A program made the translations under genes and the position numbers. Below are positions 1 through 29,783 of a stretch of 35,853 nucleotides of DNA, piece by piece (position 1 is the first letter of the stretch; every line of letters begins with the position of its first letter). This DNA comes from Chromatiales bacterium (GTDB lineage Bacteria; Pseudomonadota; Gammaproteobacteria; Thiohalomonadales; Thiohalomonadaceae), in assembly GCA_003251535.1 (NCBI GenBank), contig QKFD01000063.1, positions 1 through 35,853 on the forward strand, given 5' to 3'. The notes below the pieces were generated by a model that ran no database searches, had not been told where the DNA came from, and worked only from the letters and a program-made list of their open reading frames with translations.

Positions 1-3000
1 GGGGCGCGGCTGATCGCCGCCCGCGGCCGGCTGATGGCGGAGCGCTGCGGCCCCGGGGCGATGGTGGCGCTGCTGGCGGAGGAGGGGCAGGTGCAGGGGC
101 TGCTGGCCGATCTGCCCATCTCTTGGGCGGCGACCAACGGCGAGCGCAACCAGGTGCTCTCCGGGGCGAGTGAGGCCATCGATGAGTTGGTGGCGCGGGC
201 CGAGCAAGCCGGGGTGGAGTGGCGGCGGCTGGAGGTCTCCCACGCCTTCCACAGCGACCTGATGGAGCCGATGTTGGCGGAGTTCCGGGCGCTGGCGCAG
301 GGGATCCAATATCAGGCGCCGCGGCTGCGCTTTATCTCCACCCTGCGCGGGGCGGAGGTGAGCACAGAGCTGACCGATCCCGAGTATTGGGTGGCGCAGG
401 TGCGGGCCTGCGTGCGCTATCGGCAGGGGCTGGCGGCGCTGCGCCAGCAGGGGATAAACCACTTCTTGGAGATCGGCCCCAGCACCACCCTGGTGGGGAT
501 GGGGCGGGTGGATGATGCCGACGGGCGCGGGGTGTGGCTGGCCAGCCAGAAGGCGGGCCGCGAGGCGTGGGCCCAGCTGCTGGAGAGTCTGGGCCGGCTC
601 TATGAGGCGGGGCTGGAGATCGACTGGGCCGGTTTTGACCGCCCCTATGCGCGCCGCCGGGTGGTGCTCCCCACCTACCCCTTCCAGCGCCAACGCTACT
701 GGCTGGCGGAGTGCAGTGGTCGCGGGGCGCCGTCGCGCCCGGTGCCGGCGCCCGCTGCCCACCCCCTGCTGGGGCAGCGGCTGGAGTTGGCCGAGAGTAG
801 TGCCACCTACTTCAGCGCCTGGATCAGCCCCGACAACCCGGGCTACCTACAGGACCATCAGCTGTTTGGGGCGGTGCTGGTGCCCGGTGCCGGTTATGTC
901 GAGATGGCCCTCTCGGCCGGCGCCGAGCAGCGGCCGCGCTCCGCTGGCCTGACGGTGGCCGATATCGACTTCGCCCAGGCGCTGACCCTCAATGGTAGTG
1001 AGCCGGTGCAGATGCAGCTGCTATTGGAGGCGAGTGCGGGCGGGGCGCGGGCCTTCCGTATCCACACCCAGCGCAACGCCGAGTGGAGTCTGCACGCCCA
1101 CGGTCGGCTGCTGGAGGAGACCGCCAGCGCCCCCCAGACGGCGGTTGCGCTATCTCAGTTGACGGCCCGCTGCGAGCGCAGTGTGGCCGGGGAGGCGTTC
1201 TACGACGAGCTGGAGCGGGGGGGCGTCATCTTTGGCCCGGTCTTTGGGCCCGCCTTCCGCCGTATCAGCCGCTGTTGGTTGGGGCATGGCGAGGCGGTGA
1301 GCGAGATCACCGTGCCGCCCGATGCCGCTGCCTACGCCCTCCACCCCACTGTCATCGACGCCTGCTTCCAGACCATTGCCGCCACCATGGCGGCCGATGC
1401 CGATCACCTCTGCATCCCCGGCGGAGTCGGCCGCTTCCACCTCTACCGCAAGGCGCACGGCCCACTCTGGTGCCACGCCGTGGCGGCGCCGGGCCCCGCC
1501 AGCGGGGCGCGCTGTGATATCGGCGATATGCGGCTGTTCGATGCCAGCGGTCAGGTGGTGGCCGAGCTGAAGGGCTTTGAGGTGCTGCGGCTCCAGCGCG
1601 GCAAGCTGATGGGGAGCGCCGAGCAGGCGTGGAGCAGCTGGCTCTACCAGCTCGCCTGGCGGCCGGATGAGCTGGATGGCGCCGCTGGCGCCCTGGTCAG
1701 TCCGACGGAGATCTTCACCCAGCTCGCCCCCGAACTGGCGCAGATGGTGACGGGGGAGGGGCGCGAGCGAGGGCGCCAGGCGCTCCAGCAGATCGACCAC
1801 CTGGGGCTTGGCTATATCCTCGCTGCCCTCCAGCAGCTCGGTTGGCGCAGCGCGCTCGGGGAGCGCTTCAATATCCATCGGCTGGCCGACCAGTGGGATG
1901 TGGCGATTCAACATCGCCGGCTCTTTTTACGGCTCTTCCGCATCCTGGAGGAGGAGGGGATCGTCGAACGGGATGGGGCCCAGTGGCAGCTCTGTGGCGC
2001 GCCACCGGTGATCGATGTCGGCGCGGAATTGGCAGCACTACAGCAGCGCTATCCGGAGGTGGCGCCGGAGCTGACCCTCCTGGAGCGCTGCGGTAGCCGG
2101 CTGGCCGATGTGCTGCTGGACCGTTGCGATGCGCTGCAACTGCTGTTTGCCGGTGGTGATGCCGATGACGCCGCCCGGCTCTACGCCAACTCGCCGATGA
2201 ACGGCCTGGTGGCCAAGGCGGTGGCCGCGGCGCTGACCCAGCTACCCGCCGAGCGGAAGTTGCGGGTCATCGAGGTGGGGGCCGGCACCGGTGGCACCAC
2301 CGCCTCGGTGCTGGAGGTCTTGGCGACGCGCAATGTCGAGTACACCTTCACCGATCTCTCGCCCACCTTCCTCGCCCAGGCGCAGGCGCGCTTTAGCGAC
2401 CACCCCTTCATCGACTACCGGCCCCTCAATATCGAGGAGCAGCCGGCGGCGCAGGGCTTGGAGAGCCAGCGTTACGACCTGGTGGTGGCCGCCAATGTGT
2501 TGCACGCCACCCGTGACCTGCGCAAGACGGTGGGCAATGCCCTCTCCCTACTCGCCCCAGGGGGGATGTTGGTGTTGCTGGAGGTGACCAGCCGCTTGCG
2601 CCTGACCGATCTGGTGTTTGGGCTGACCGAGGGTTGGTGGCACTTCACCGATCTGGATCTGCGCCCCGATCACCCGCTGCTCAGCCAGCCGCAGTGGCAG
2701 GCGTTGTTGGCGGAGAGTGGCTGCGATGCGGTGCAGGTGTTGGCCCCGGCCGATGAGAGCGAGGGGCTGTCGGTCATTGTCGCCCGCCGGGCGGCCACCG
2801 CCAGCACCGCCGCGGAGGCCGCTTACCACTGGCTGCTGGTGGATGATGACGCCGGCAGCGGCCGCCGGTTGGGTCAGCAGCTGACCCAACTGGGGGCGGC
2901 CAACCACCTCATCGAGGCGGCACAGGTGGCGGCCGGCGGCGAGCCGCTGCGCGCCCAACTCGCCGCCCTGCTGGCCGAGCGCACCATGCCGACCCAGCTC

Positions 3001-4578
3001 ATCTACTTCACCCCAGCGGCGCCCGCGCTGGCGCCGGTGGAGGCGGCACTGGCGCTCTGCGGACCGCTACTCCAGTTGGTGCAGGCGCTGGCGGCCACTC
3101 CACGGGCGGCGCCGCTGGCACTGCGGGTCGTCAGTCGCGGCGCCAGCGCTGTCGAAGGGGCGCCGGTGGTGCCCCTCCAGGGGGCGATCTGGGGGATGGC
3201 GGGGAGTATCGCCGCCGAGTTCCCGGAGCTTGCCTGCAAACGGATCGACCTCGCTGAAGGGGATGAGGCGTGGCTGCTTGGGGCGCTGTGCCGCGAGGCG
3301 GTCAGCCGCTCGCGGGAGGAGCAGGTGGCGCTACGCAATGGACAGCGCTATGTCGCCCGCCTGGCCCGCCACCCCTTGGCGAGCGAGCTGTTGACCCAGC
3401 CGCTACAGTGCGCACGGGAGGGGAGCTATCTCATCACCGGTGGCCTGGGGGGGCTCGGTCTGCGGGTGGCCGAGCTGCTGGCCCAGCGCGGGGCGGGGCG
3501 GCTGGTATTGGTGGGACGCAGCGCCCCCAGTGCCGAGGCGGAGGCGCAGTTGGCGGCGATCCGCACCCAGGGGGCAGAGGTGGTGACGTTGGCCGCTGAC
3601 ATCTCCCAGCCGGCAGCGGTGGCGGAGCTGTTGGCCACCATTGATCGTACCGGCCCGCCGCTGCGCGGTGTGATCCACGCCGCGGGGTTGTTGCGCGATG
3701 GTCTGCTGGAGCGGCAGACGTTGGCCGACTTCGCGGCGGTATTTGCCGCCAAGATCGGCGGCGCCTGGAATCTGCACCAGGCCCTCATGGGGCGGCCGCT
3801 CGATCTCTTTGTGCTCTTCTCGTCGGCCTCTGCGCTGCTCGGTTCGCCGGCCCAGGCGTCCCATGCCGCCGCCAACTGGTTCATGGATGCCCTCAGCCAG
3901 CTGCGGCGGGCCGCCGGCCTGCCCTGTGTCAGTATCGACTGGGGGCCGTGGTCGGAGATCGGCGCCGCCAAGGGGGAGAAGGTGCAGTCCAACCTCACCC
4001 AGTACGGCATGAGCGCCATCGATCCGGCGGCCGGGATCGCGGCCACCGAATATCTCTTGCGCTCCAGCGCCACCCCGGTGGCGGTGATGCCCATCGATCT
4101 GCATCAGCTGGTGGCCCGCTTCCCCCTCGGGCAGGGGCCGCTGCTGTTTGCCGAGTTGACCGAGTTCTTTGGCGACAACGCCAAGGCGGGCGGGGCCGAG
4201 GCGGGGGTCGATCTCCTGGCGGCGCTGCGCAGTGCCGCACCCGAGCGGCGTCAGGCGCTGCTGGGGGACTTCCTCCGGGAGCGGGTCGCCTTTGTCCTCG
4301 GTATGGACTCGGCGGCCCTCGATGTGGGGGTTGCCCTCACTGCGCTGGGGCTCGACTCGCTCATGGCGCTGAAACTGCGCACCCTCATCGACCAGACCTT
4401 CCAGATCGATATCCCGGTGGCGAAGTTCCTCACCGGCATGTCAACCCAAGAGTTGGGGGAGCGGCTGTTGGCGGCCCTGGCGGCCCGTCTCGCCGATGAG
4501 GCGGCAGGTGATGGGGCGGCGGGGACCAACGCGGAGCCGGAGCGGCGGGAGCAGGAGTGGCTGGAGGGGGCGCTATGA
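1..4578 (+). CDS. Type I polyketide synthase module, 5' truncated (AT-DH-CMT-KR-ACP)
   Basis: The frame is open from base 1, so the KS and the start of the AT lie outside the window. Numbering from the ATG at 34: AT C-terminal half to about residue 226, with HAFHS at 70-74, the signature of malonyl-CoA-specific ATs; DH about 242-530, with HxxxGxxxxP near 275 and DACFQ near 442; C-methyltransferase about 540-925, with GAGTGGTT near 745 and the NVLHAT and GWW signatures of PKS C-methyltransferases; KR about 1050-1330, with GGLGGLG near 1134; ACP with the phosphopantetheine serine in GLDSL at 1442. No ER or TE is present, so the expected unit is an alpha-methyl, alpha,beta-unsaturated thioester. 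At the KR active site the usual Tyr is His1277 (SHAAAN). The chain ends in a short acidic tail and the stop overlaps the next start (ATGA), so PKS and NRPS are translationally coupled and probably adjacent in the assembly line. Confidence 0.95.
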   Translation, partial: GARLIAARGRLMAERCGPGAMVALLAEEGQVQGLLADLPISWAATNGERNQVLSGASEAIDELVARAEQAGVEWRRLEVSHAFHSDLMEPMLAEFRALAQGIQYQAPRLRFISTLRGAEVSTELTDPEYWVAQVRACVRYRQGLAALRQQGINHFLEIGPSTTLVGMGRVDDADGRGVWLASQKAGREAWAQLLESLGRLYEAGLEIDWAGFDRPYARRRVVLPTYPFQRQRYWLAECSGRGAPSRPVPAPAAHPLLGQRLELAESSATYFSAWISPDNPGYLQDHQLFGAVLVPGAGYVEMALSAGAEQRPRSAGLTVADIDFAQALTLNGSEPVQMQLLLEASAGGARAFRIHTQRNAEWSLHAHGRLLEETASAPQTAVALSQLTARCERSVAGEAFYDELERGGVIFGPVFGPAFRRISRCWLGHGEAVSEITVPPDAAAYALHPTVIDACFQTIAATMAADADHLCIPGGVGRFHLYRKAHGPLWCHAVAAPGPASGARCDIGDMRLFDASGQVVAELKGFEVLRLQRGKLMGSAEQAWSSWLYQLAWRPDELDGAAGALVSPTEIFTQLAPELAQMVTGEGRERGRQALQQIDHLGLGYILAALQQLGWRSALGERFNIHRLADQWDVAIQHRRLFLRLFRILEEEGIVERDGAQWQLCGAPPVIDVGAELAALQQRYPEVAPELTLLERCGSRLADVLLDRCDALQLLFAGGDADDAARLYANSPMNGLVAKAVAAALTQLPAERKLRVIEVGAGTGGTTASVLEVLATRNVEYTFTDLSPTFLAQAQARFSDHPFIDYRPLNIEEQPAAQGLESQRYDLVVAANVLHATRDLRKTVGNALSLLAPGGMLVLLEVTSRLRLTDLVFGLTEGWWHFTDLDLRPDHPLLSQPQWQALLAESGCDAVQVLAPADESEGLSVIVARRAATASTAAEAAYHWLLVDDDAGSGRRLGQQLTQLGAANHLIEAAQVAAGGEPLRAQLAALLAERTMPTQLIYFTPAAPALAPVEAALALCGPLLQLVQALAATPRAAPLALRVVSRGASAVEGAPVVPLQGAIWGMAGSIAAEFPELACKRIDLAEGDEAWLLGALCREAVSRSREEQVALRNGQRYVARLARHPLASELLTQPLQCAREGSYLITGGLGGLGLRVAELLAQRGAGRLVLVGRSAPSAEAEAQLAAIRTQGAEVVTLAADISQPAAVAELLATIDRTGPPLRGVIHAAGLLRDGLLERQTLADFAAVFAAKIGGAWNLHQALMGRPLDLFVLFSSASALLGSPAQASHAAANWFMDALSQLRRAAGLPCVSIDWGPWSEIGAAKGEKVQSNLTQYGMSAIDPAAGIAATEYLLRSSATPVAVMPIDLHQLVARFPLGQGPLLFAELTEFFGDNAKAGGAEAGVDLLAALRSAAPERRQALLGDFLRERVAFVLGMDSAALDVGVALTALGLDSLMALKLRTLIDQTFQIDIPVAKFLTGMSTQELGERLLAALAARLADEAAGDGAAGTNAEPERREQEWLEGAL

Positions 4579-7500
4579 CCGTTGATCAGCTGTTGGATGA
4601 GTTGGCCCGCCGCGGCGTGGAGCTGTGGATCGATAGCGGCCTGCTCCGTTTCAAGGCCCCCAAGGAGGCGCTGGACGAGGCGCTACTGGCGCTGCTCAAG
4701 GCGCGCAAGGCGGCGGTCATCGAGCGCTTGGCGAGCCGCGGCGGGAGTCAGCGCCGCCACCCGCTCACCTATGGCCAGCGGTCGCTCTGGTTTCTGCACC
4801 AGGTGGCGCCGACCACCGCCGCCTATAACGTCGCCTATCCGTGCCGCATCCGTTCGGCGATCGATCTGCCTGCCTTCAATCGGGCGCTACAGCAGCTGAC
4901 GGCGCGCCACTCTGCCCTGCGCACCGCCTTTGTGGTGAGCGGCGGGGAGCCGTTTCAGGAGATCGCCGAGCAGGTCGAACCCACCTGTAGCCTGGTGGAG
5001 GTTGCCGGTTGCACCCAGGCGGTGTTGGCGGAGCAGGTGGCCAACGCCTACCGTCAGCCGTTTGATCTCTCCCAGCCGCCGCTGCTGCGGGCCACGCTGT
5101 TCCGTCGGGCGGCGGATGATCAGGTGCTGCTGCTGGTGCTCCACCATCTGGTGTGTGATGGCTGGTCACTGATGCAGATCCTGGTGGATGAGTTAGGCCA
5201 GCTCTACCAGGCCGCGCTGACGGGGGTAGCGGCGGCGTTGCCGGCCGTCATGCCGCAATATGTCGATTACGTCCATTGGCAGCGCCACTACCTGACCCAA
5301 CCCGCCGCCGCGCAGGCGCTGGCCTATTGGCGCGAGCGGCTGGCGGGTGAGCTGCCGGTGCTGGACCTCCCCACCGATCGGCCGCGGCCGGCGGTGTCGG
5401 CGCTGCGCGGCGCCTCCTATGGCTTTGAACTCCCGCCGCCGTTGGCGTCCGCCATGCGGGCCGTGGCCCAGGCCCACAACGCCACCCTCTACATGTATCT
5501 GGTCGCCGCCTTGCAGCTGCTACTGGCGCGCAACTCCGCCCAGGAGGAGGTGCTGATCGGCTCACCCAGTGGCGATCGCAGTCGGCCCGACTTCGCCGCT
5601 ATGGTGGGGCACATGGTCAATACCATCGTGCTGCGCGCCCAGCTGGGTGATAACCCACCGTTTGCCGAGCTGCTACAGCGGGTGCGGAGTGAGGTGCTGA
5701 ACGCCCTGGAGCACCAGGAGTACCCCTTTGCCCTATTGGTGGAGCAGCTGCAACCGGAGCGGGATCTGAGCCGCTCGCCCATCTTCCAGGCGATGGTGGT
5801 GACCCACAAAGGGGAGGGGCGCCAGGAGCTGTTTGGTGGCACCGCGGCGGCCGGCCGCTGGGGCGGCATGGTGATCGAGCCATACACCATGCCGCAGCAG
5901 GCGGGGCAGTTTGACCTCACCCTGGAGGTGGCCGAGGTGGGTGAGGCGCTGGCCTGCGTCTTCAAGTACAACGCCGAGATCTTCACCCCTGAGCACATCG
6001 CCAATCTGGCCGAGCAGTTTCAGGTGTTGGTGGCCGCGGTCAACCGCGCACCGCAGACCCCGGTGGCGCTACTACCACTGCTCAGCGCGCAGGAGTTACA
6101 GCTCCAGTTGGAGCAGTGGAACGCCACCGCCGCCCCCTGGTTGTCAGACCAGTGTCTCCACCAGCTCTTCGCCGCCCAGGTGCAGCGCACCCCGGATGCC
6201 CCGGCCCTGGTCACCCCGACCGAGCGTTTGAGTTACCGCGAACTGGAGGCGCGGGCCGAGCAGCTGGCGGCCCAGTTGCGCCAGCTTGGGGTGGGACCGG
6301 AGCAGCTGGTGGGGGTCTTTCTGCCGCGCCAGAGTGCCCTCATCGTGGCGCTGCTGGCGGTATTGAAGGCGGGGGGGGCCTATGTGCCCATCGATCCCCG
6401 TTACCCGCCCCAGCGCATCGCCTTCATGGTGGAGGATGCCGCCGCCCGCATCATCATCACCGACTCCAGCCTGGTGGGGCGGCTGCCGGCCACCGCGGCC
6501 ACGGTGGTGCAGGTGGATGGGCCGCCACCACCGCTGCCGGCGGCAGCGGCGGATGAGGTGCGCCCGCCCCGCCCGGCCGATCTCGCCTACGTGCTCTTCA
6601 CCTCCGGCTCCACCGGCCGGCCGAAGGGGGTGCAGATCGAGCACCGCAGCGCGGTGGCCATGCTCTGCTGGGCACGGGATAGCTTCTCCGCGGCGGAGCT
6701 GAGTTGGGTGCTCGCCTCCACCTCGGTCTGCTTTGATCTCTCGGTGTTTGAGATCTTTGTCCCCCTGAGCTGGGGGGGCTGCGTGGTGCTGGCGGAGAGT
6801 GCGCTGGAGCTGCCGCAGCTGGCGCTGGCGGGGCAGGTGACCCTGATCAACACCGTGCCCTCGGCCATTGCCGAGCTGCTGCGTATCGATGGTATCCCCG
6901 CTGGGGTGCGTACCATCAATCTGGCCGGTGAGCCGTTGAAGGGGGCGCTAGTGCAGGCGCTCTATCGCCACACCGGGGTGGAGCGGGTGCTCAACCTGTA
7001 TGGGCCGAGCGAGGACACGACCTACAGCACCTGGGCCGTCATCCCGCGTGACGATAGCGCGGCGCCCACCATCGGTCGCCCCATCGCCAATACCCGCGCC
7101 TATGTGCTCTCGCCGCAGTTGCAGCCGGTCCCCATCGGCACCCCGGGCGAACTCTATCTGGCCGGGGCGGGCCTCTCCCGTGGTTACTGGCAGCGGCCGG
7201 ATCTCAGTGCGGAGCGGTTTCTGCCGGACCCCTTCGTCACCGATCCCGCCGCCCGCATGTATCGCACCGGCGATTTTGTCCGCTACCTGGCCAACGGCGA
7301 GCTGCTCTATCTCGGGCGGGCCGACAATCAGGTCAAGCTGCGTGGGTTCCGTATCGAGTTGGGCGAGGTGGAGGAGGTGCTCTCCCGCTTCCCCGCGGTA
7401 CAGGAGGTGGCGGCGTTGGTCCACAGCGACCATCAGGGGGCCAAGTTGGTCGCCTACCTCGCCGCCAAGCCGGGGAGCGACGCGCCGGTGCTGGCGGAGT

Positions 7501-9146
7501 TGCGCGAGTTTGCCCGTGCCCAGCTCCCCTACTTCATGGTTCCCACCGACCTCATCCTGCTGCCCCAGATGCCCCACACCCCCAACGGCAAGATTGATCG
7601 CGCCGCCCTGCCGGCCCCGGCGGTCGCCACTGCCCCACTGGCGGTGGCGGCGGGGAGTGCCCCCAGTGGGGCGCTGGAGCGGGTGGTGGCGGGGATCTGG
7701 GAGGAGGTGTTGGAGCGCTCCCCCATCGCCAGCGATGACAACTTTTTTGAGATCGGCGGCCACTCGTTGTTGGCGGCCAAGGTGAGCCACCGGCTCAATC
7801 AGATCCTCGGGACCCAGCTGGGGGCGGGGCTGCTATTCGAGTATCCCACCATCGCCGCCCTGGCCCGCGCCATCGACGCCATCCAGTCCGGGACGGTGCC
7901 CCACGGCGCAGGGGCGGCGGCGCTGGACCTCTGGGCGGAGGCGGAGCTGGATCCGGCGCTTGTCCCGCCCAGCGGCGGTCAACCGGCCAGCTTGGACGGC
8001 GCCCGCTCCGTGCTGCTCTCCGGCGCCACCGGTTTCATCGGCGGCTATCTGCTGTGGGAGTTGCTGCGCCACTCCAGCGCCGTGATCCACTGCCTGGTGC
8101 GGGCCGCCGACGAGGCGCAGGCGCTGGAGCGTATCGCGCTGTCGCTCCAGCGTCATGGGGTTGAGTTAACGGCCGCCCAGCAGGCCCGTATCCGGCCGCT
8201 GTTGGGGGATCTGGTGGCGCCGCATTTCGGTCTGTCGGAGGCGGTCTATGGGGCGCTGGCCGAAGAGGTGGATCTGCTGTTTCACAGCGCCGCGGCCCTC
8301 AACCTCGCTTACCCCTATCCGCTGCTCAAACCGACCAATGTGGATGGCACCACTGAGTTTATCCGCTTCGCCTGCACGGGGCGGATCAAACCGCTGCACT
8401 ACCTCTCCACCATCTCGGTATTCGACGGCAGCGGCTACTTTGACGGCCGGGTAATCCGCGAGACGGACGAGCCCGATGAGATCACTGGCCTCGACCATGG
8501 CTACGCCCAGAGTAAGTGGGTCGCCGAGCGCCGGGTGAAGGCGGCGGCGCAGCGCGGGCTGCCGGTCACCATCCATCGCCTCGGTTCGGTGATCGGCGCC
8601 AGTGATACCGGCATCTGGCACGCCGACGACATCATGCACCAGATGCTGGCCGCCGCCGTCGAGCTAGAGCAGTGGATCGATATCGATCTGGCCACCTATC
8701 TCGCGCCGGTGGACTACGTGGCGCGCTCTATTGTCGAGCTGGCGCGCCACCCCTCCGCCTTTGGCCAGACCTTCCATCTCATCGCCTCCAATGTGGTCCG
8801 TTCCGGGGAGGTGCGGGACTGGTTGCACGGCTGCGGTATCGACCTCGCGCCGGTCTCCTCCGCCGAGTGGCAGGGGAGCTTTGCCCGCCGCTTGGCCGAG
8901 GGGGGGGCCCCGCCACCCCGCTGGAGCGGGCTGCTGCCGCTGCTCGAACACCTCTTCTCCGAGGAGCAGTTGGCGAAGCTGCTGGATCGGCACGCCCGCA
9001 GCCCGCGCTTCGATTGCAGTGGGGCGGAGCGTGCGTTGCGCGCCGCCGCCATTGCCACCCCGGCGGTGGATGGGGCGTTGATGCGGCGCTTCCTCGCCAC
9101 TCGCGGCAACTTTACCGCCCCCGCTGACCTGGCGGCGGTGGAGTGA
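4575..9146 (+). CDS. NRPS: TubC docking-C-A-PCP-terminal thioester reductase
   Basis: ATG 4575 is chosen over the upstream GTG 4557 because it forms an ATGA overlap with the PKS stop and follows GGAGGGGG. The product is 1523 residues. Residues 1-55 match the TubC N-terminal docking fold (GVELW, LRFKAPK, LLALLKARK). The condensation domain follows, with HHLVCDG at 190-196. The adenylation domain has LFTSGSTGRPKG near 674, YGPSED, YRTGD and NGKID. By manual alignment its ten specificity positions read D-L-F-N-N-A-L-T-Y-K, which I associate from memory with alanine. The carrier domain has GGHSLL with Ser1064. The C-terminal third is a Rossmann reductase (SGATGFIGGY near 1150, catalytic YAQSK at 1310-1314), which releases the chain as an aldehyde or, after a second reduction, an alcohol. 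No TE or epimerase domain is present. One amino acid is therefore added to the acyl chain from the upstream PKS and released reductively. Confidence 0.95.
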   Translation: MTVDQLLDELARRGVELWIDSGLLRFKAPKEALDEALLALLKARKAAVIERLASRGGSQRRHPLTYGQRSLWFLHQVAPTTAAYNVAYPCRIRSAIDLPAFNRALQQLTARHSALRTAFVVSGGEPFQEIAEQVEPTCSLVEVAGCTQAVLAEQVANAYRQPFDLSQPPLLRATLFRRAADDQVLLLVLHHLVCDGWSLMQILVDELGQLYQAALTGVAAALPAVMPQYVDYVHWQRHYLTQPAAAQALAYWRERLAGELPVLDLPTDRPRPAVSALRGASYGFELPPPLASAMRAVAQAHNATLYMYLVAALQLLLARNSAQEEVLIGSPSGDRSRPDFAAMVGHMVNTIVLRAQLGDNPPFAELLQRVRSEVLNALEHQEYPFALLVEQLQPERDLSRSPIFQAMVVTHKGEGRQELFGGTAAAGRWGGMVIEPYTMPQQAGQFDLTLEVAEVGEALACVFKYNAEIFTPEHIANLAEQFQVLVAAVNRAPQTPVALLPLLSAQELQLQLEQWNATAAPWLSDQCLHQLFAAQVQRTPDAPALVTPTERLSYRELEARAEQLAAQLRQLGVGPEQLVGVFLPRQSALIVALLAVLKAGGAYVPIDPRYPPQRIAFMVEDAAARIIITDSSLVGRLPATAATVVQVDGPPPPLPAAAADEVRPPRPADLAYVLFTSGSTGRPKGVQIEHRSAVAMLCWARDSFSAAELSWVLASTSVCFDLSVFEIFVPLSWGGCVVLAESALELPQLALAGQVTLINTVPSAIAELLRIDGIPAGVRTINLAGEPLKGALVQALYRHTGVERVLNLYGPSEDTTYSTWAVIPRDDSAAPTIGRPIANTRAYVLSPQLQPVPIGTPGELYLAGAGLSRGYWQRPDLSAERFLPDPFVTDPAARMYRTGDFVRYLANGELLYLGRADNQVKLRGFRIELGEVEEVLSRFPAVQEVAALVHSDHQGAKLVAYLAAKPGSDAPVLAELREFARAQLPYFMVPTDLILLPQMPHTPNGKIDRAALPAPAVATAPLAVAAGSAPSGALERVVAGIWEEVLERSPIASDDNFFEIGGHSLLAAKVSHRLNQILGTQLGAGLLFEYPTIAALARAIDAIQSGTVPHGAGAAALDLWAEAELDPALVPPSGGQPASLDGARSVLLSGATGFIGGYLLWELLRHSSAVIHCLVRAADEAQALERIALSLQRHGVELTAAQQARIRPLLGDLVAPHFGLSEAVYGALAEEVDLLFHSAAALNLAYPYPLLKPTNVDGTTEFIRFACTGRIKPLHYLSTISVFDGSGYFDGRVIRETDEPDEITGLDHGYAQSKWVAERRVKAAAQRGLPVTIHRLGSVIGASDTGIWHADDIMHQMLAAAVELEQWIDIDLATYLAPVDYVARSIVELARHPSAFGQTFHLIASNVVRSGEVRDWLHGCGIDLAPVSSAEWQGSFARRLAEGGAPPPRWSGLLPLLEHLFSEEQLAKLLDRHARSPRFDCSGAERALRAAAIATPAVDGALMRRFLATRGNFTAPADLAAVE

Positions 9147-9170
9147 ACTGCGGTCCGCAAAGGAGATAGC

Positions 9171-9962
9171 ATGACCCTGACCCAAGCTGAGATCGCCCAC
9201 TGGTTCCATATCCCGCAGCCCCGCGAGCGCCCGCTGCTGCGGCTCTACACCTTTCCTTTTGCCGGTGGCACCGGCACCGCCTACCACGCCTGGGCCAAGC
9301 TGTTACCGCCCTCTATCGAGCTGTGCGCAGTGATGTTGCCGGGGCGCTTGGGGCGGCTGGAGGAGACCCCCTATAACCGCATGGCGCCGCTGGTGGCGGA
9401 GCTGGCCCGTCTTATCGCCCGGCGCGACCCAACGCCGTTCCTGCTCTTTGGCCACAGCATGGGGGCGGTGCTGGCCTACGAGGTGAGCCACCGGCTGTGG
9501 CAGCAGTTTGGCCGCCTGCCGCTGCATCTCATCGCCTCCGGCCACCGCGCCCCGCAGCTGCCCAATCGGCGCGCCGAGATCTATCGCCTGCCGCAGGCGC
9601 AGTTCATAGAGGAGCTGCGGCAGTTCAACGGTACCCCACCGCAGCTGCTGGCGGATCAGGACTTGATGGACCTACTGCTGCCGGCGCTGCGCGCCGATTT
9701 CGAGATGTTGGGCACCTTGCCCTATGTCGAACGGGCCCCCCTGCCGCTACCGATCACCGCATTTGGTGGACGTGAAGATGGAGAGGCGAGCCTGGCAGAG
9801 ATCGAGGCGTGGTCGATCCACACCGGTGAGCAGTTCAACTGGGAGCAGTTTGACGGGGGGCACTTTTTTGTCCATGAGCGCCGCGGTGAGGTGGTCGCCC
9901 GGGTGGGCGCCATCTGCATCGCCGCCACGGCAGCGCTGCCGCTCGCCCAGGGTGTCGGCTGA
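9171..9962 (+). CDS. Type II thioesterase (GrsT/SrfD family)
   Basis: A 263-residue alpha/beta-hydrolase. The N-terminal FPFAGGTGTAYHAW region and the nucleophile elbow GHSMG (Ser96) are diagnostic of external thioesterases of PKS/NRPS systems, and GGHFF near the C-terminus carries the catalytic His. Members of this family act in the cytosol to clear aberrant or stalled acyl groups from carrier domains; they do not normally release product. That fits here because the NRPS already ends in a reductase. The ATG follows AAAGGAGATAGC, a strong ribosome binding site. It lies 24 bp after the NRPS stop, so it belongs to the same operon. Confidence 0.93.
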   Translation: MTLTQAEIAHWFHIPQPRERPLLRLYTFPFAGGTGTAYHAWAKLLPPSIELCAVMLPGRLGRLEETPYNRMAPLVAELARLIARRDPTPFLLFGHSMGAVLAYEVSHRLWQQFGRLPLHLIASGHRAPQLPNRRAEIYRLPQAQFIEELRQFNGTPPQLLADQDLMDLLLPALRADFEMLGTLPYVERAPLPLPITAFGGREDGEASLAEIEAWSIHTGEQFNWEQFDGGHFFVHERRGEVVARVGAICIAATAALPLAQGVG

Positions 9963-9968
9963 GAGAGC

Positions 9969-9986
9969 GCCCAGGGTGACCTGGGC
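9969..9986 (+). other. Intercistronic hairpin between TEII and FAAL genes
   Basis: GCCCAGG and CCTGGGC form a perfect 7-bp stem with a GTGA loop, starting 7 nt after the TEII stop. No T-tract follows, so it is more likely an mRNA-stability or attenuating element inside the operon than a true terminator. Confidence 0.4.
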
Positions 9987-10021
9987 AGGGAGCTGGTCTA
10001 TGCAGCAAAGGAGAGATGGCA

Positions 10022-12151
10022 ATGGGCATTGAGGCGCAGAGCAGCAGCCTGGTGGAGCTGCTTCAACGGCGGGCGCAGGCAGCGCCGGAGGGGCTCGCCT
10101 ATGAGATGTTACGCGGTGAGGGGGAGGTGGAACAGCGCCTCACCTTTGCGGCGTTGGATAGGCAGGCTCAGGGGATTGCGGCGGCGCTGCTGGAGCGCGC
10201 CCGGCCGGGGGATCGGGCGCTGCTGCTCTACCACAACGGGGTGGAGTTTCTCGCCGCCTTCTTCGGTTGCCTCTATGCCGGGGTGATCGGCGTGCCGCTC
10301 TATCCGCCGCGCCTCAATAAGCACCTGAGCCGCCTGACGGCGGTCGCCCGCGACTGCGCGCCGCGGCTGATCTTGGCCTGTAGCGGCAACCAGCGACACA
10401 TGGAGTCGCTGCTGGCGACGCTGCCCCCCGCGGACCGTCCCAGCCTGCTGGAGGCCGATACCATCGCGCCGGCCGCGGCGGGTGAGGTGTGGCGCGGGAG
10501 CGCCCACGAGCTGGCCTTTTTGCAGTACACCTCGGGCTCCACTGGCATCCCCAAGGGGGTGATGGTGAGCCACGCCAATCTGCTGCACAACCTCGGCCAT
10601 ATGCAGCGCGGTTTCCGTTACGACGCCCACTCCCACATGGTGAGCTGGCTGCCGGTGCACCACGACCTCGGCCTCATCTTCGGTGTCCTGCTGCCGCTGT
10701 ATGGGGGCTTCCCCGCCACCCTGTTGCTACCGGCCGCCTTTGTCCAGCGCCCCTATCGTTGGTTGAAGGCGATCAGCGATAGCCGCGCCACCACCACCGG
10801 GGCACCCAACTTCGCCTTTGAGCTGTGTGTCGATGCGATTGGCGAGGAGGAGCGGCGCAGCCTCGATCTCTCTAGCCTGCGTCAGGTGTTGAATGCGGCG
10901 GAGCCGGTGCGTGCCAGCACCCTGCAACGCTTTGCCCACCACTTTGCCGACTGCGGTTTCCGCGCGGAGAGCTTCAATCCCTGCTACGGCATGGCCGAGG
11001 CGACGCTGCTTATCTCCATGCACCAGGGGCCCGATCGGTTGACCATCGATGAGGTGGCGAGTGCCGCCTTGGAGCGCGGTCAGGTGCAGCCGGTGGCCGC
11101 GGGGGAGGAGGGGCGCCCCTTTGTCGGCTGTGGCAGCGGTTTTGCCGATCAAGCGATCCGCATCGTCGATCCACAGACGCTGCAACCCCTCCCGGACCAG
11201 CAGATCGGCGAGCTATGGGTGCGCGGGCCGAGCGTCTGCCGCGGCTATTGGGGACGGGAGGAGGCGACCGCCGAGGCGTTTGGCGGTGCGCTGGCGGGGG
11301 CGGCGGCGGGTGCCCCCTTTCTGCGCACCGGGGACCTCGCCTATGTGCGGGAGGGACAGGTCTTCATCGCCGGTCGGCTGAAGGATCTCATCATTGTGCG
11401 CGGCAACAACCACTACCCGCAGGATATCGAGTACACGGTGCAGGATTGTTGGCAGGGGTTCCACTCCCAGCGGGGGGCGGCCTTTGCCATCGAGCGCGAT
11501 GGTGAGGAGCGGCTGGTGGTGGTGCAGGAGGTGGCGCGGGTATTCCGCGACAAGATCGATCCAGAGCAGATAGGTCGGCAGGTGGGCAATGCCATCGCCC
11601 AGGCGCATGAGTTGAAACTAGATCGGCTAGTGGTGGTACGGCCTGCCTCCATCCCGCTCACCAGCAGCGGCAAGATCCAGCGGCGACTGACCAAACAGCT
11701 GTGGTTGGCCGATGAGCTGGAGGTGATCGCCCAGTGGGGCGCCAAACCCGAGCCGGCCTTGGCGGCCACACCCCGTAGTCCGGCCCAGGGGGAGCTGTTC
11801 CGCAAGGAGCTGAAGGCGTGGTTGCGGGAGGAGTTGGCGGCGCAGTTCGCGGTGCCGCTGGAGGCGGTGCCGCTGAACGAGCCCTACGCCTACCTCGGCT
11901 TCGACTCCCTCATCGCCACCGCCGTCGCCAGCAAACTGGGCCGCTTCATCGGCCATGAGGTAGAGGCCAACTGCTTCTTCGACTACCCCACCCTGGAGGC
12001 GCTCAGCGGCTGGCTGGTGGTCGAGTATGGTGCCGATGGCGCGGGTCTCCCTCCACCGGTGCCGGCCAAGCGAGGGGGGCGGGGTCTCGATCTGGACGCC
12101 ATCGAACAGATGAGCGATGAAGAGGCCGAACTCCTGTTGCGGGAGTTGTGA
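10022..12151 (+). CDS. Fatty-acyl-AMP ligase fused to an acyl carrier domain (FAAL-ACP)
   Basis: ATG 10022 is preferred to ATG 10016: AGGAG at 10009-10013 is 8 nt from 10022 but only 2 nt from 10016. The product is 709 residues. The adenylation part has YTSGSTGIPKGVMVSH near 169-184, the SWLPVHHDLGL and NPCYGMAE motifs typical of FAALs, RTGDLAY, and the carboxy-terminal GRLKDLIIVRGNNHYPQDIE. A carrier domain follows, with GFDSL and its serine at 629. FAALs activate a free fatty acid as acyl-adenylate and pass it to an ACP instead of CoA, so this is the probable loading module for the truncated PKS. The last 20 or so residues (IEQMSDEEAELLLREL) resemble acidic C-terminal tails used for docking between assembly-line proteins. 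The substrate chain length cannot be read from sequence. Confidence 0.93.
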   Translation: MGIEAQSSSLVELLQRRAQAAPEGLAYEMLRGEGEVEQRLTFAALDRQAQGIAAALLERARPGDRALLLYHNGVEFLAAFFGCLYAGVIGVPLYPPRLNKHLSRLTAVARDCAPRLILACSGNQRHMESLLATLPPADRPSLLEADTIAPAAAGEVWRGSAHELAFLQYTSGSTGIPKGVMVSHANLLHNLGHMQRGFRYDAHSHMVSWLPVHHDLGLIFGVLLPLYGGFPATLLLPAAFVQRPYRWLKAISDSRATTTGAPNFAFELCVDAIGEEERRSLDLSSLRQVLNAAEPVRASTLQRFAHHFADCGFRAESFNPCYGMAEATLLISMHQGPDRLTIDEVASAALERGQVQPVAAGEEGRPFVGCGSGFADQAIRIVDPQTLQPLPDQQIGELWVRGPSVCRGYWGREEATAEAFGGALAGAAAGAPFLRTGDLAYVREGQVFIAGRLKDLIIVRGNNHYPQDIEYTVQDCWQGFHSQRGAAFAIERDGEERLVVVQEVARVFRDKIDPEQIGRQVGNAIAQAHELKLDRLVVVRPASIPLTSSGKIQRRLTKQLWLADELEVIAQWGAKPEPALAATPRSPAQGELFRKELKAWLREELAAQFAVPLEAVPLNEPYAYLGFDSLIATAVASKLGRFIGHEVEANCFFDYPTLEALSGWLVVEYGADGAGLPPPVPAKRGGRGLDLDAIEQMSDEEAELLLREL

Positions 12152-12152
12152 G

Positions 12153-13445
12153 ATGGCACTGGCCCAGTTATGGCGCGGGGCGGCCACCACGCGGCGGGTG
12201 GGCGAGGCCTATTTCATGGCGCTCTCCGCGCTGGGGGTGGGCAGCGACATCGTGGTGACCTGCGAGTTGCAGCGGCCACTGGCGGTAAGCCGCGCCATCG
12301 CGGCGTTTGGCGAGCTGCTGGAGCAGTGGCCAGCGCTGCGTTATCGCCGGGTGCGGCGAGGGACGGAGTGGCACTGGCGGCCACCCCAGGATGGGGCGTG
12401 GCGGCTGGCCTGGCAGCAGCTCAGTGACGCCCTGGCCAGGGGGGAGTCCCCCACCGCCGCGGACGGCGGCGATCAGCTGCCGTTGCGCCTCTCCGCCTGT
12501 AGCGAGGTCCGCCTGGTGTTTCGGCTGGACCACACCTTTGGCAATGGGCGCGCCGCGTTGGTGTGGATCGAACGCTACTTCCAACGGCTCTCCGCGGCGT
12601 CAACGGGGCCTGCCGAGGCCCCCTCCGGTCGGCGTCAGCGGTTGCAGGCCGGCGGGCCGTTGGCCCTCTTCCCGGCGCTACGCTACCTCTCCCGCCACCT
12701 GCGGCTGCGGCAGCGGCTGACGGCGACCGGTACGGACCTGCGGCAACCGCTCATGGGCGAGGCAACTGATGCGGCGCCAGGGTATTGGGAGGGGCGCTTT
12801 GTCTGGTCTCAGCAGGAGCTACAGCAGCGGCTACTACGCCACGCCGGGGCGGCGGAGAGCTTCTCCCAGGTGCTCACGCGGCGCCTGGTGGAGCACACCT
12901 TGGCGTCGTGTCAGGAGCTGCGGGGGCTAGGGATCGATGTGGTGGCCGATATGCATGACACCTACCGCATCCCGCCGCCTGGCATCGGCAACTTTACGGT
13001 GTCGCTGCTGGCCTATGTGGATCGCGCGGCGCCCATCGAGGGGCAGATCGGCGCGCTATTTGGTCACCTGCAAGCCGGCCTGCCGAGGGGGATCGGCCAG
13101 CTCATGCGCCTCCTCTCGCCCACCTTGCCCCGCTTAGCGGGGCGTCTGCGCGGCGATCTGGCACGCGCCATGGGCGGGGCGGGGGTGCCGATGCTGGACA
13201 ACCTCTATACCGTCTCCAGCGTGGGCCGCATCGAGGCGGGGTCACTGCGGCAGTGGGCCCGTACCCTCTCGCTACGCACCTATACCCACGCCATCTATGT
13301 CTCCGCTACCACCATCAACGGGGCGACCGCCTTTGAGGTGACCTATCCCGTCCAGCTCTTCGACTCGACGCGGGTGGAGGCGGTGATCCGCGGCTTCTTC
13401 GAGCCGGCGGCGGCGCCTCAGGAGTGCTTGCCCACGACGAAATAG
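12153..13445 (+). CDS. Stand-alone condensation-like acyltransferase
   Basis: ATG 12153 follows GGGAG and lies 1 nt after the FAAL stop; an in-frame ATG at 12117 lies inside the FAAL gene and is less likely. The product is 430 residues. The fold signature is that of the condensation-domain/CoA-dependent acyltransferase superfamily (also PapA and WS/DGAT proteins): an N-terminal strand with LEQWPALRYR, an active-site segment DHTFGNG at 126-132 in place of HHxxxDG, a later PPPGIGNFTVS segment, and a C-terminal NLYTVSSVGRI similar to the structural motif near the domain end. The second, catalytic His (127) is kept, while the first His is Asp and the motif Asp is Asn. It may esterify or amidate the released product or offload the chain to an alcohol or amine. 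The family assignment rests on motifs and cluster context; the exact reaction is unknown. Confidence 0.7.
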   Translation: MALAQLWRGAATTRRVGEAYFMALSALGVGSDIVVTCELQRPLAVSRAIAAFGELLEQWPALRYRRVRRGTEWHWRPPQDGAWRLAWQQLSDALARGESPTAADGGDQLPLRLSACSEVRLVFRLDHTFGNGRAALVWIERYFQRLSAASTGPAEAPSGRRQRLQAGGPLALFPALRYLSRHLRLRQRLTATGTDLRQPLMGEATDAAPGYWEGRFVWSQQELQQRLLRHAGAAESFSQVLTRRLVEHTLASCQELRGLGIDVVADMHDTYRIPPPGIGNFTVSLLAYVDRAAPIEGQIGALFGHLQAGLPRGIGQLMRLLSPTLPRLAGRLRGDLARAMGGAGVPMLDNLYTVSSVGRIEAGSLRQWARTLSLRTYTHAIYVSATTINGATAFEVTYPVQLFDSTRVEAVIRGFFEPAAAPQECLPTTK

Positions 13446-16927: not shown

Positions 16928-17093
16928 GTCGGTTGGGTTAGCGCAGCGTCACCCGACGATCCCCACCCCGGCACCACCGTTACAAACGCAGCAGTGGAAT
17001 CCCCATCTCTGGCAAAACCAACAGTCCCAGTGGAATGTGGTTGTGCCCCTGCGGGGGATTGTCGGGTTACGCTGCGCTAACGCCGACCTACAT
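16928..17093 (-). repeat. Palindrome-bounded dispersed repeat, copy A (inverted orientation)
   Basis: Bounded by two GTCGGGTTA/TAACCCGAC-type palindromes (about 16931-16957 and 17061-17087). The interior aligns, as the reverse complement, with the units at 33258 and 35651: shared blocks include ATCCCCACCCCGGCAC, CAGCAGTGGAA, ACCAACAG, CAGTGGAATG and GTGCCCCTGCGG. It is more diverged than those two. It carries no coding frame and looks like a BIME/MITE-type element. Confidence 0.75.
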
Positions 17094-17170
17094 CGGATAG
17101 CGTCCACTTCGAGGGGCTTGCCTGAATAACCCATCCCGGAGGAGGTCCCACTCCGGCGATGATGAGGGTA

Positions 17171-17240
17171 GGTTGGGTTAGCGGAGCGTCACCCAACCAT
17201 CCCCACCCCGGCACCCGCTGTAGTGGATTCCCGCTGTGGG
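17171..17240 (-). repeat. Partial copy of the palindrome-bounded repeat
   Basis: A palindrome with arms GGTTGGGT/ACCCAACC (17171-17198) is followed by ATCCCCACCCCGGCAC, the same order as the start of copy A, and then diverges. Compensating changes keep the arms paired, suggesting selection on the hairpin or descent from a different REP subtype. Confidence 0.6.
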
Positions 17241-17263: not shown

Positions 17264-18664
17264 CTAAACCGAGATAAATAGCGCCAGTGTGATGACGCCT
17301 AGCAGAACGCTGACGATGATGGCACCGGTGATTGCCGCTGCCAGCCAAGGGGGGGCTGCCTCTTGGCAGCTGCGGCCATGGGTGGGTTGGTGGGGGAGTC
17401 GGCTGCCTAGATAGGTCAGTAGCAGATCGACATGGCGATCTCCCTTGATGCCATCCCCCACGATAAAGCAGCGGCCATCTTGGGTGTGGAGGCGGATGGC
17501 ATATTCGATCTCCGAGTGGGCCCCTTGATCCGTTTGGGTGCTAATCCGCTTGTCGAAGCCGTAGATATCGCGGGTGCTCAGGGTTCGGCTGAAGCGCTTC
17601 TGGAAGAAGTGGCGGGTGATGGTGAGCTGGTCTCCCGTCAGCTCCACTTGCAGCCGATTGACCAGGTAGTAGAGCCCCCCCAAGAGCATGGCGCTGCCGG
17701 CAAACGCCAGGCCAAGGAATAGCACCAGCTTGGTCAGCAGCGCGAAGAGCGGTGGCTGGTCAGGGCCAAAGCTCTGATACAGGACATAGAGCATGAAGAG
17801 GGAGCCGGCATCGGCGGCGGCGCCGAAGGCGAGTAGTAGTTGACCGAAGGAGCGCTCTCTTCCCGGGGGGTAGTCGATGGTGAAGCCGTTGGCGCGCTCC
17901 TCCACCCGCGCTATCTCCGCTGGCAGCGTCGCAATCTCGGCCCGGGTAGGGGCGGTCTCGGGCGATGCCGGCGGCTCTGTATCGCGCGCTGTCTCGTTGC
18001 CGAGCCGGAAGACGGGGATGGTAAATGACTCGTCGAATCCCACGGCGGGGACCTGCACCCGCACCATCCAGACGATGGCCACCTTGAGATTGCGGCTCTC
18101 CTCCACATGCTGGAGGGAGGCGTCGGGTTGATCGGCATCGACTAAGGCGTTGAAGCGGACCTCGCTGCCGAGGTGGGCGGGGGTGACGTGGGCCTCTGCC
18201 TGGCGGCGCCAGAGCACCTGCTGGGCCGAACTCTGCCCTCGGGTATCACGGATGCAGTTGAGATCCACGCTGGCCTGGCTGCCCGCTGGCAGGCGGTAGG
18301 GGAGGCTGATTCTGCCGGCCACTTGGCCCCCAATCCGTCCTGGGTAGGGTTCAAGGGTGAGGCGGAGTTGGCGGTTTTTTTGCCACTTGAACCAGGCCTT
18401 GAGGACCAGCGGGAGCTGGATCACCACCAACAGGAGTAGAAAAAGTAGTAGTAGATAGCCGTCGAAGTGGTGGAACCCCTCCTGTAGCACCCGCTGCACG
18501 CTGGTACTGATCTCACTCCGCTTGAACAGCACCAACGGGATGATGATGAGCCCGGAGATGAGCAGACTGGCGATCTGGGCGTAGAGGTTTAAATCGACGT
18601 TGTTGGCGCGGATCTGGCCATTTTTCCAGGCCTGGCGCGCCAGCCAAGGGGCAGCGGTTGTCAT
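17264..18664 (-). CDS. Large membrane protein of unknown function
   Basis: 466 residues. Predicted transmembrane segments lie at about 29-47, 68-90, 283-303, 308-335 and 443-464. Between the second and third is a roughly 190-residue soluble beta-rich region (GRIGGQVAGRISLPYRLPAG, CIRDTRGQSS, VRFNALVDAD), and a second soluble part with a PH-like pattern (LTGDQLTITRHFFQKRFSRTL) sits between the fourth and fifth. The alternating membrane pairs and beta domains resemble DUF3592-type membrane proteins, but I cannot assign a family. The ribosome binding site is weak (GGGT, 9 nt from the ATG). The stop codon lies inside a 7-bp inverted repeat (GGCGCTA...TAGCGCC, 17260-17285). It is flanked downstream by the repeat copies and upstream by the hairpin-containing gap before the lipoprotein gene. 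Confidence 0.8.
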   Translation of the reverse strand: MTTAAPWLARQAWKNGQIRANNVDLNLYAQIASLLISGLIIIPLVLFKRSEISTSVQRVLQEGFHHFDGYLLLLFLLLLVVIQLPLVLKAWFKWQKNRQLRLTLEPYPGRIGGQVAGRISLPYRLPAGSQASVDLNCIRDTRGQSSAQQVLWRRQAEAHVTPAHLGSEVRFNALVDADQPDASLQHVEESRNLKVAIVWMVRVQVPAVGFDESFTIPVFRLGNETARDTEPPASPETAPTRAEIATLPAEIARVEERANGFTIDYPPGRERSFGQLLLAFGAAADAGSLFMLYVLYQSFGPDQPPLFALLTKLVLFLGLAFAGSAMLLGGLYYLVNRLQVELTGDQLTITRHFFQKRFSRTLSTRDIYGFDKRISTQTDQGAHSEIEYAIRLHTQDGRCFIVGDGIKGDRHVDLLLTYLGSRLPHQPTHGRSCQEAAPPWLAAAITGAIIVSVLLGVITLALFISV

Positions 18665-18861: not shown

Positions 18862-19518
18862 CTACGGCACTACCTCAACCACGGGCTGCCAGTTAAACAT
18901 CCCATCAAAATCCGTGCAGCCGAGCATGGCGGGCGAGGCGTCATCGACATAGATCTGATACGCCGCATTGGTCGGATAGGAGAGGTATTCGCTACACCAG
19001 ACACTCTGGCCGGTACCGATGACCACCTTGGCGCCGGGCTTGAGGGTGCAGCGGGTCAGCTTGTCGAGGGGGGAGAACTGGTAGCAGATCTCATAGTTGT
19101 TGCGGTACTGGGCGACCTCGCCGGTCGGTTTGTGGAAGGCCCACCACTTACCCAAGCGGCTGTAAGGGTTGGTGCTGTTCCAGGCGCGAAAGAGGGTGAC
19201 CGTCGCGGTGGCTTGATAGACCTGGCCTTGGCACAACCCCCCTTTATCCGGGGCCCCCAGCGCCTTAGTCAGCAGCGTCTCATCCTGGACCGGCTGGAGC
19301 AGGCCACGGTACTCCGCGGGGAGGGTGGTGGTGCCGCTACAGGTCGCCCCGGCGCTACTGGCGGCAACGGGGGGCGATGTCGTTGCGGGCTGGGTGGCTG
19401 AATCCTGCACGGGCAGGTGGGTACAGCCGCCGAGCGTGAGGAGGGCGAGGATTGCCCAGTGGCGTGGGCGCAGTTGCCGGCCACAGTGCTGCGGCCAAGA
19501 GGTGGCTAGTCTATTCAT
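18862..19518 (-). CDS. Outer-membrane-type lipoprotein of unknown function
   Basis: 218 residues with a basic N-region, a hydrophobic stretch and the lipobox LTLGGC (lipidated Cys32), so it is exported and lipid-anchored; residue +2 is Thr, which does not match the inner-membrane retention rule. A Thr/Pro/Ser/Ala-rich linker (33-60) leads to a globular part with at least seven cysteines (for example GGLCQGQ, YEICYQF, TRCTLKPG, VWCSEYLS, MLGCTDFDG), consistent with several disulfides. No enzymatic motif is recognised. AGGGATG precedes the ATG. It lies about 140 bp downstream of the response regulator gene on the same strand, so co-transcription is possible but not evident. Confidence 0.75.
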   Translation of the reverse strand: MNRLATSWPQHCGRQLRPRHWAILALLTLGGCTHLPVQDSATQPATTSPPVAASSAGATCSGTTTLPAEYRGLLQPVQDETLLTKALGAPDKGGLCQGQVYQATATVTLFRAWNSTNPYSRLGKWWAFHKPTGEVAQYRNNYEICYQFSPLDKLTRCTLKPGAKVVIGTGQSVWCSEYLSYPTNAAYQIYVDDASPAMLGCTDFDGMFNWQPVVEVVP

Positions 19519-28117: not shown

Positions 28118-29395
28118 TCAACCAAAACTGTCGGTGAACAGGTTGGCTCCCCAGTCGAACATCCGCTGGAAGTTGCGGCTGCTGATGGTGGGGGACTCCA
28201 CCAAGCTCTCCGGGACCACCCGCATGGTGCCGCTGGCGGCATCGTAAGCGTAGACCGCGGTTAGCCAGCCGGCAGTGGAGTGGGTGACCGGGCTGAAGCA
28301 GGCGGAGGCGGTCTTCGGCGCCGGATCTGGTGCCAGGCCGGAGAGGGAGCGCAGGATGGCGTCGGCGCAGACCTTGGCCTGGGCGTTGGCCATGTGGCCA
28401 GACTTCGGCTGGCTACTGTTCTGGGCATCACCGATGATGTGGATCCCGCTCACCATGGTCGATTCGTAGCTCAGGGGATCCACCGCTACCCAGCGTTGGC
28501 CCGTTGGGACCAGCGGCGCCACGACTTGGGAGGCGCCGTGGGGCGGGATGACATTGAGGACGTCGGCCTGGTACGCCCCTTGATCGGTGTAGGCAATGCG
28601 TTGGGCGGAGTCAACCGACTCCAACTGGACCCCAGGCTGGTAGTCGATCACCCCGGCGTGGATGGTGTCGAAGGCGGTTTGGAAGGTGTGGGCCTCGGCG
28701 ACGATGGCGGGGTTGGCATCCAGTATCACCACCCGCGCCCCAGGCCGATTGGTCTTCAACCAGTCGGCCACAAGGCAGGCGCGCTCATAGGGGCCGGGGG
28801 GGCATCGGTAGGGGGCGGGGGGGATGGTCATCACAAAGGTGCCGCCGGCCGGCATGGCGAACAGCTGCTGCTTGAGCAGCTCGGTCTGGGGGCCCGCCTT
28901 CCAGGCGTGGGGGATGAGGTTGCTATCGAGACCCGGTACGGCGTCGAAGTCGATCCCCGGGGCGACCACCAGCCGGTCGTAGTCGATGCGGCTACCGCCT
29001 GCGGTGACGATATAGCGGGCGACGGGATCGGCATCCACCGCCCGGTCCTGCACCACATTGACGCCGCGTGCGGTCAGGCTGTCGTAACCGAGGGTGAGCA
29101 GGCTGAGATCGATGGCACCTGTCACCGCCAGATTGCTGCCGATGCAGGCGACATGGTTGGGGTTGGGCTCCACCAGGGTGACCGCCAGTGAGGGGTCCCA
29201 AAGCCGCAGATATTTGGCCACCGAGGCGCCGCCGAAGCCACCGCCCACCACCACCACCCGCGCACTGCTGGCGGCGCTGCTGCGCCGGCTCACCAGCGGC
29301 AGACTGCCCACGGCAGTGCCGGCGAGTACCGCTTTGAGCAGACGGCGGCGCGCCATTGAGGGTTGCTGTCCGTAGAGCCGATCAATCGCCCTCAT
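28118..29395 (-). CDS. fccB: Sulfide dehydrogenase [flavocytochrome c] flavoprotein FccB
   Basis: Periplasmic FAD subunit that oxidises sulfide to sulfur/polysulfide and passes electrons to the FccA haem. 425 residues from ATG 29395, overlapping the end of fccA by 14 bp; the frame opens further upstream inside fccA. MARRRLLKAVLAG gives a twin-arginine signal (RRxLLK), as for the known enzyme. The FAD motif VVVVGGGFGGA follows at about 47-57. CPPGPYERAC carries the redox-active Cys of FCSD/SQR proteins, and the later ACFSPV is the likely disulfide partner. GIHIIGDAQN and PKSGHMANAQ are the C-terminal FAD segment. Together with fccA it marks a sulfur-oxidising metabolism. Confidence 0.95.
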   Translation of the reverse strand: MRAIDRLYGQQPSMARRRLLKAVLAGTAVGSLPLVSRRSSAASSARVVVVGGGFGGASVAKYLRLWDPSLAVTLVEPNPNHVACIGSNLAVTGAIDLSLLTLGYDSLTARGVNVVQDRAVDADPVARYIVTAGGSRIDYDRLVVAPGIDFDAVPGLDSNLIPHAWKAGPQTELLKQQLFAMPAGGTFVMTIPPAPYRCPPGPYERACLVADWLKTNRPGARVVILDANPAIVAEAHTFQTAFDTIHAGVIDYQPGVQLESVDSAQRIAYTDQGAYQADVLNVIPPHGASQVVAPLVPTGQRWVAVDPLSYESTMVSGIHIIGDAQNSSQPKSGHMANAQAKVCADAILRSLSGLAPDPAPKTASACFSPVTHSTAGWLTAVYAYDAASGTMRVVPESLVESPTISSRNFQRMFDWGANLFTDSFG

Positions 29396-29714
29396 GGTCG
29401 CTCCCTCCGGCACTGCTACCCTTGGGAAGGGTGGCGAGATATTGGGCAATGAGTCGCACCTCGGCGTCGGTGAAACCGTGGGCCTGGGCAGTCATGATGT
29501 CGTTCGCGGTCTCGCCGCGCATCTCACGCATCTCTTCAATGATCTCGTTTTCGCTCTCACCGGCCAGCCCTTCGATACCGGAGACAGAGATACCGTTGGT
29601 GCCGTGGCACTGAAAACATTGGGAGGCGAGCAGCCGGCCGGCAGGTGGCTCTGCGGCCTGGCAGGGGAGGGCGCTGCCGAGCAGCAGCGCCAGGGCGATG
29701 GCAGTGGGTCTCAT
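29382..29714 (-). CDS. fccA: Sulfide dehydrogenase cytochrome subunit FccA (monohaem)
   Basis: 110 residues from ATG 29714, which follows AGGAG; the upstream in-frame ATG 29732 is less likely. The signal peptide ends at LPCQAA-EPP. One haem c site, CFQCH, lies close to the mature N-terminus, with Met in DIMTAQAHGF as the probable distal ligand and a C-terminal helix (EVRLIAQYLATLP). This is a class I cytochrome c of the FccA type. There is a single CxxCH, so it is the short monohaem form, unlike the dihaem subunit known from Allochromatium. It accepts electrons from FccB and gives them to a soluble cytochrome. First gene of the pair; the 14-bp overlap with fccB indicates coupled translation. 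Confidence 0.92.
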   Translation of the reverse strand: MRPTAIALALLLGSALPCQAAEPPAGRLLASQCFQCHGTNGISVSGIEGLAGESENEIIEEMREMRGETANDIMTAQAHGFTDAEVRLIAQYLATLPKGSSAGGSDHEGD

Positions 29715-29783
29715 CACATGCTCCTGGGTCATGGGTAGGCCGGTTACCGAGCTGGTAGTGGCGCGGAGCAGGATGGGGAGGTT

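Follow-up and report, generated by a model that had tools for sequence, protein, structure and literature searches.

The window, which is the whole stretch of 35,853 nucleotides analysed here, comes from a Chromatiales bacterium and makes up one entire contig (C54) of a genome of 4.6 Mb in 130 contigs. Five genes, all on the + strand, fill positions 1–13445. The first is a type I PKS gene of which only the 3' part is present (1–4578), with the domains AT-DH-C-methyltransferase (CMT)-KR-ACP recognised from Pfam domains and motifs. It is followed by an NRPS (4575–9146) in which a TubC_N docking domain precedes C, A, PCP and thioester reductase (R) domains, as judged from Pfam, TIGR01746 and motifs. 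Then come a type II thioesterase (TE) with the motif GHSMG (9171–9962; PF00975, E 2e-47), a FAAL-ACP (10016–12151; PF00501, PF23024 and PF00550) and a stand-alone protein of the condensation superfamily (12153–13445), which was recognised by profile–profile comparison. Within the FAAL-ACP gene, the FAAL part covers about 10037–11737 and the ACP part 11819–12016, and the protein ends in a C-terminal docking motif of PKS type, LDLDAIEQMSDEEAELLLREL, encoded at 12086–12148. In the stand-alone protein, the motif DHTFGNG (12528–12548) replaces HHxxxDG.

In a Pfam profile search the main domains score far over the cut-offs, and the domains lie where the first-pass annotation, made from the letters of the DNA, had placed them. 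The five genes that it named, their common strand and their tight spacing are all confirmed. The PKS and NRPS genes are tightly packed, with the stop of the first overlapping the start of the second (ATGA at 4575), and the gaps after the NRPS gene are 24, 53 and then 1 bases. Two of the starts deserve a comment. The listed reading frame of the NRPS opens at GTG 4557, but the better ribosome site belongs to ATG 4575, which is probably the true start. For the stand-alone gene the longest reading frame (442 aa) runs from 12117, and ATG 12153 is the likelier start.

Other parts of the window contain genes of different kinds. Two reading frames on the - strand, of 466 aa (17264–18664) and 218 aa (18862–19518), have no Pfam match at E 0.1. 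Genes for a flavocytochrome c sulfide dehydrogenase and a c-type cytochrome are found at 28118–29732 on the - strand, and judged from these flavocytochrome c genes, a sulfur-oxidiser setting is plausible. A CHAT-AAA-TPR protein of 1094 aa is encoded at 29951–33235 on the + strand, and after it lies an IS21-type transposase pair (33526–35579).

Position 1 of the window is a contig end lying inside an acyltransferase, and this has direct effects on how the locus is read. Another contig, C122, ends in exactly the 125 bases with which the window begins, and when the two are joined a single open frame of 2203 residues results, with the domains KS-AT-DH-CMT-KR-ACP. C122 thus supplies the missing KS-AT half as well as the end of the preceding module (AT end-DH-KR-ACP). 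A second physical join, with an overlap of 144 bases, connects C20 and C77. Parts of window 1–709 are moreover 93–98% identical at the DNA level to the ends of C120, C20, C8, C92, C115 and C122. KS domains are found on C8, C44, C120, C77 (two), C92, C115 and C122. Each of them has the active-site Cys motif, and in a tree that includes two KS from a second line in the same genome, on contig C58, they cluster apart from the latter. These KS domains are only 49–67% identical at the protein level, against the 93–98% DNA identity of the AT segments. Since the KS domains have diverged while the AT DNA has stayed nearly identical, it is suggested that the ATs have been homogenised by recombination, likely gene conversion, and that the assembly was broken by just this.

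Because near-identical AT segments recur on the further contigs, we count about eight PKS modules in the putative line, i.e. about seven beyond the one in the window. The count depends on contigs of which only the C122–window and C20–C77 pairs are joined physically; the others are placed by near-identical AT or KS-AT linker segments and are unordered, and as C44 has no upstream partner, one piece of the line is missing. An early view, in which the contig ends could be linked up in only one way, was dropped after C44 turned up. The processing domains vary across the modules (DH-KR, DH-ER-KR, KR only and DH-ER-CMT-KR), and two modules of the line contain C-methyltransferases. Between two PKS genes on the C92 locus lies a carbamoyltransferase gene (1586–3370, - strand; PF16861 and PF02543), whose product probably decorates a hydroxyl.

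The first-pass annotation had described a minimal line, in which one PKS module, one NRPS module, a FAAL and a reductase make an alpha-methyl-enoyl fatty amide whose amino part is an amino aldehyde or amino alcohol. The window does contain exactly those domains. However, the left end of the window is an assembly break, since the window spans an entire contig; an upstream module is physically joined to it through C122; and the same genome has about six further KS modules whose AT or linker segments are nearly identical, together with the carbamoyltransferase on the linked or matching contigs. The annotation had itself named extra upstream modules as the finding that would count against a minimal line, and since they are present the minimal line is contradicted; we give this reading hardly any credence. 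The KS and most of the line lie beyond the window on other contigs, which the letters of the window could not show. In our preferred reading, which we consider probable, the window carries the 3' end of a single large type I PKS-NRPS line that is primed by the FAAL and releases its product reductively.

In that large line the modules would extend the chain with malonyl units, and the AT in the window has the malonyl-type motif VSHAFH. The DH and CMT motifs of the window's module are intact. An alignment to the KR of mycocerosic acid synthase (MAS) shows that the KR of the same module has His at the position of the catalytic Tyr, and for this reason the alpha-methyl-enoyl unit proposed at first pass is uncertain. 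The same Tyr to His change is seen in three KRs of the line (window 3820–3912, C44 277 and C77 6844). From the last PKS module the chain would be handed on to the NRPS at its TubC docking domain.

The single NRPS module of the first reading stands as a C-A-PCP-R gene. Its C domain has the motif HHLVCDG and would join the chain to one small amino acid. By eye, from core motifs and reference positions, the pocket of the A domain reads D L F N N A L T Y K, which we take to be alanine-like; tentatively, the A domain may thus accept a small, alanine-like amino acid. A literature search found no confirmation of the alanine assignment of this pocket code. The R domain reaches 292 bits with TIGR01746 against a cut-off of 213 (PF07993, E 1e-58), and it keeps the Rossmann glycines (GATGFIGG) and the YxxxK motif, here YAQSK. 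Reductive release to an aldehyde or alcohol, as had been proposed, is therefore supported by an intact R domain. The closest solved structure is the R domain of MxaA from the myxalamid line (4u7w, E 4e-68, 233 bits; the next match has 189), and in myxalamid synthase the R domain is reported to give an alcohol by four-electron reduction (PMC2835699), a parallel that is suggestive. Given an MxaA-like R domain and an alanine-like pocket, the product is likely to end in an amino alcohol, with an aldehyde as a possibility; the R domain would then release an N-acyl amino alcohol or aldehyde. A proofreading role is probable for the type II TE, which would clear stalled chains.

In the myxalamid line of Stigmatella, a multi-module type I PKS passes its chain to a C-A-PCP-R NRPS. 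The line described here has the same architecture, and its R domain is more similar to that of MxaA than to any other solved structure; the two lines may also have an alanine-like residue and an amino alcohol end in common. Priming in myxalamid biosynthesis differs from a FAAL-ACP acting in trans, and this kind of priming, the stand-alone condensation-superfamily gene and the carbamoyltransferase set the window's line apart. It is nevertheless a recognisable relative of lines such as that of myxalamid. Among the titles and abstracts listed by literature searches on the release of alaninol or myxalamid, on FAAL lines releasing a primary alcohol and on free-standing ester-forming C enzymes, no cluster of this composition was described.

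The FAAL itself is readily recognised, as it matches FAAL structures along its full length. Its best PDB match is 7r7g (E 4e-151), followed by 3kxw (E 6e-125) and FadD23/FadD32, over about 560 residues, and PF23024 is over its cut-off. The FAAL would activate a fatty acid as acyl-AMP and load its own ACP, and this ACP would pass the chain to a KS by way of the C-terminal docking motif. The end of the FAAL-ACP (LDLDAIEQMSDEEAELLLREL) resembles the C-termini of PKS proteins on C77, C115 and C122. A regular expression for the motif, devised after the sequences had been seen, matches three of 890 six-frame reading-frame segments (C44, C122 and the FAAL-ACP) and missed the looser forms on C77 and C115. 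FAAL priming, which was part of the first-pass proposal, is in this way supported by the PKS-type docking motif.

The KS that would take over the FAAL chain is uncertain, as two docking ends, the N-terminus of C8 and the C-terminus of C92a, are unusual (docking classes were judged by eye). One could imagine two interacting lines at the locus, a monomodular PKS protein with such odd ends (C8, possibly with C92a) making a side chain and the FAAL-ACP priming the rest through C92b, and matching by docking class does pair the FAAL C-terminus with the N-terminus of C92b and the C-terminus of C92a with the N-terminus of C8. But those classes are again the ones assigned by eye, the contigs are unordered and the join of C8 and C92 was never observed, so that we regard such an arrangement as very improbable.

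A different role for the FAAL was also weighed. Here the FAAL-ACP and the stand-alone condensation-like enzyme would form a tailoring pair, with the polyketide primed in some other way: the FAAL would load a fatty acid, and the second enzyme would use it to esterify or amidate the released alcohol or a polyketide hydroxyl, in the manner of SgcC5 and PapA5, which are free-standing C-fold enzymes that esterify polyketide hydroxyls. The genes are direct neighbours, a single base lying between the stop of the first and the likely start of the second; a low-confidence model of the stand-alone protein has a fold that matches SgcC5 and PapA5; and relatives of this protein follow R-terminated NRPSs in Paenibacillales. 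On the other hand, the FAAL-ACP carries a PKS-type C-terminal docking motif, the line on C58 has its FAAL-ACP fused to a KS, and in a 31-kb region round a homologue on a Paenibacillus plasmid no FAAL is annotated. The idea of the FAAL as a tailoring enzyme was lowered owing to the docking motif, and we now consider it unlikely. With this motif in the window and the FAAL–KS fusion on C58, starter loading is preferred to tailoring, and most likely the FAAL-ACP primes the line.

The line on C58 (3486–32191, - strand) is a second FAAL-primed line of the same genome, leading from FAAL-ACP-KS to C-A-PCP-R. Like the window's line, it has a FAAL-ACP start, PKS modules, a C-A-PCP-R NRPS and an adjoining TE gene, and the two A domains are 52% identical. 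There are also clear differences: on C58 the FAAL-ACP is fused to a KS in one protein, and a FabD-like/NMO protein of trans-AT character and a PPTase gene are present. It is without a condensation-like protein, that of the window being the only stand-alone one in the genome. The two FAAL lines also have a repeat of ~92% identity in common, lying close to the end of each (window 16931–17215 and C58 33280–33849).

The freshest part of the line is this stand-alone protein, an unusual and unclassified enzyme of the condensation superfamily. A Pfam search up to E 1, PF00668 included, gave no match, and PDB sequence searches with the protein or its alignment returned nothing useful. Compared with C domains by hhalign, however, it aligns over 306 columns with a probability of 93%, DHTFGNG falling on HHLVCDG, and its score is 47.5, while none of 40 column-shuffled or reversed controls exceeds 21.6. 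By this profile evidence it is a divergent condensation-superfamily enzyme. The canonical HHxxxDG is absent, with DHTFGNG (DHxxxNG) instead, and H139 (the His after the Asp of the motif), N143 and G144 are invariant among its relatives. The predicted structure is poor (AlphaFold pLDDT 46); with this model Foldseek has SgcC5 as its top match (E 3.8e-4), while a second aligner has PapA5 (Z 8.5 over 110 residues), and with a model of this quality the fold matches serve as support only. Both are stand-alone C-fold enzymes of polyketide pathways, but they are too far away in sequence for any PDB match, and the DHxxxNG motif sets the window's protein apart.

A search for homologues covered 20 genomes from the order, 369 from the class and 398 from the phylum, and only the protein itself and one chance-like match of 38 residues were found. 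Relatives are known from the searches only in Paenibacillus and its order, Paenibacillales. In an order-wide search, nine of 395 Paenibacillales genomes have a homologue, and all eight full-length copies follow an R domain. A degraded copy, in genome G1136, has no R-domain match within its short locus. On a plasmid and at three named Paenibacillus loci the homologue's gene lies directly 3' of an R-terminated NRPS. As an example, on plasmid pHD03 and in P. panacisoli a homologous protein of about 20% identity comes right after the R domain; these NRPSs differ from the window's in having two amino-acid modules and, in the gene checked, no PKS domains, and in the plasmid region no FAAL is annotated. 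The Paenibacillales clusters are interrelated and, next to the window, amount to a single independent case, and because of this the tie between the stand-alone protein and reductive release is only suggestive. The protein would probably act in acyl-transfer tailoring, on the reductively released chain or just after release. A bolder proposal is that the DHxxxNG protein founds an undescribed acyltransferase family, dedicated to reductively released chains in two phyla, and that here it attaches an acyl chain as an ester to the terminal amino alcohol or to a hydroxyl of the polyketide, giving a product with two lipid parts. We rate this as rather unlikely.

Taken at this strength, the locus shows two parallel FAAL-primed lines, both ending in reductive release, in a bacterium that also has genes for flavocytochrome c sulfide dehydrogenase. 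The size of the window's line could be corrected by tracing the assembly breaks, which lie at AT repeats that are nearly identical. Should the stand-alone enzyme indeed act after reductive release, it would offer a sequence handle for acylated peptide or polyketide alcohols in distant phyla.
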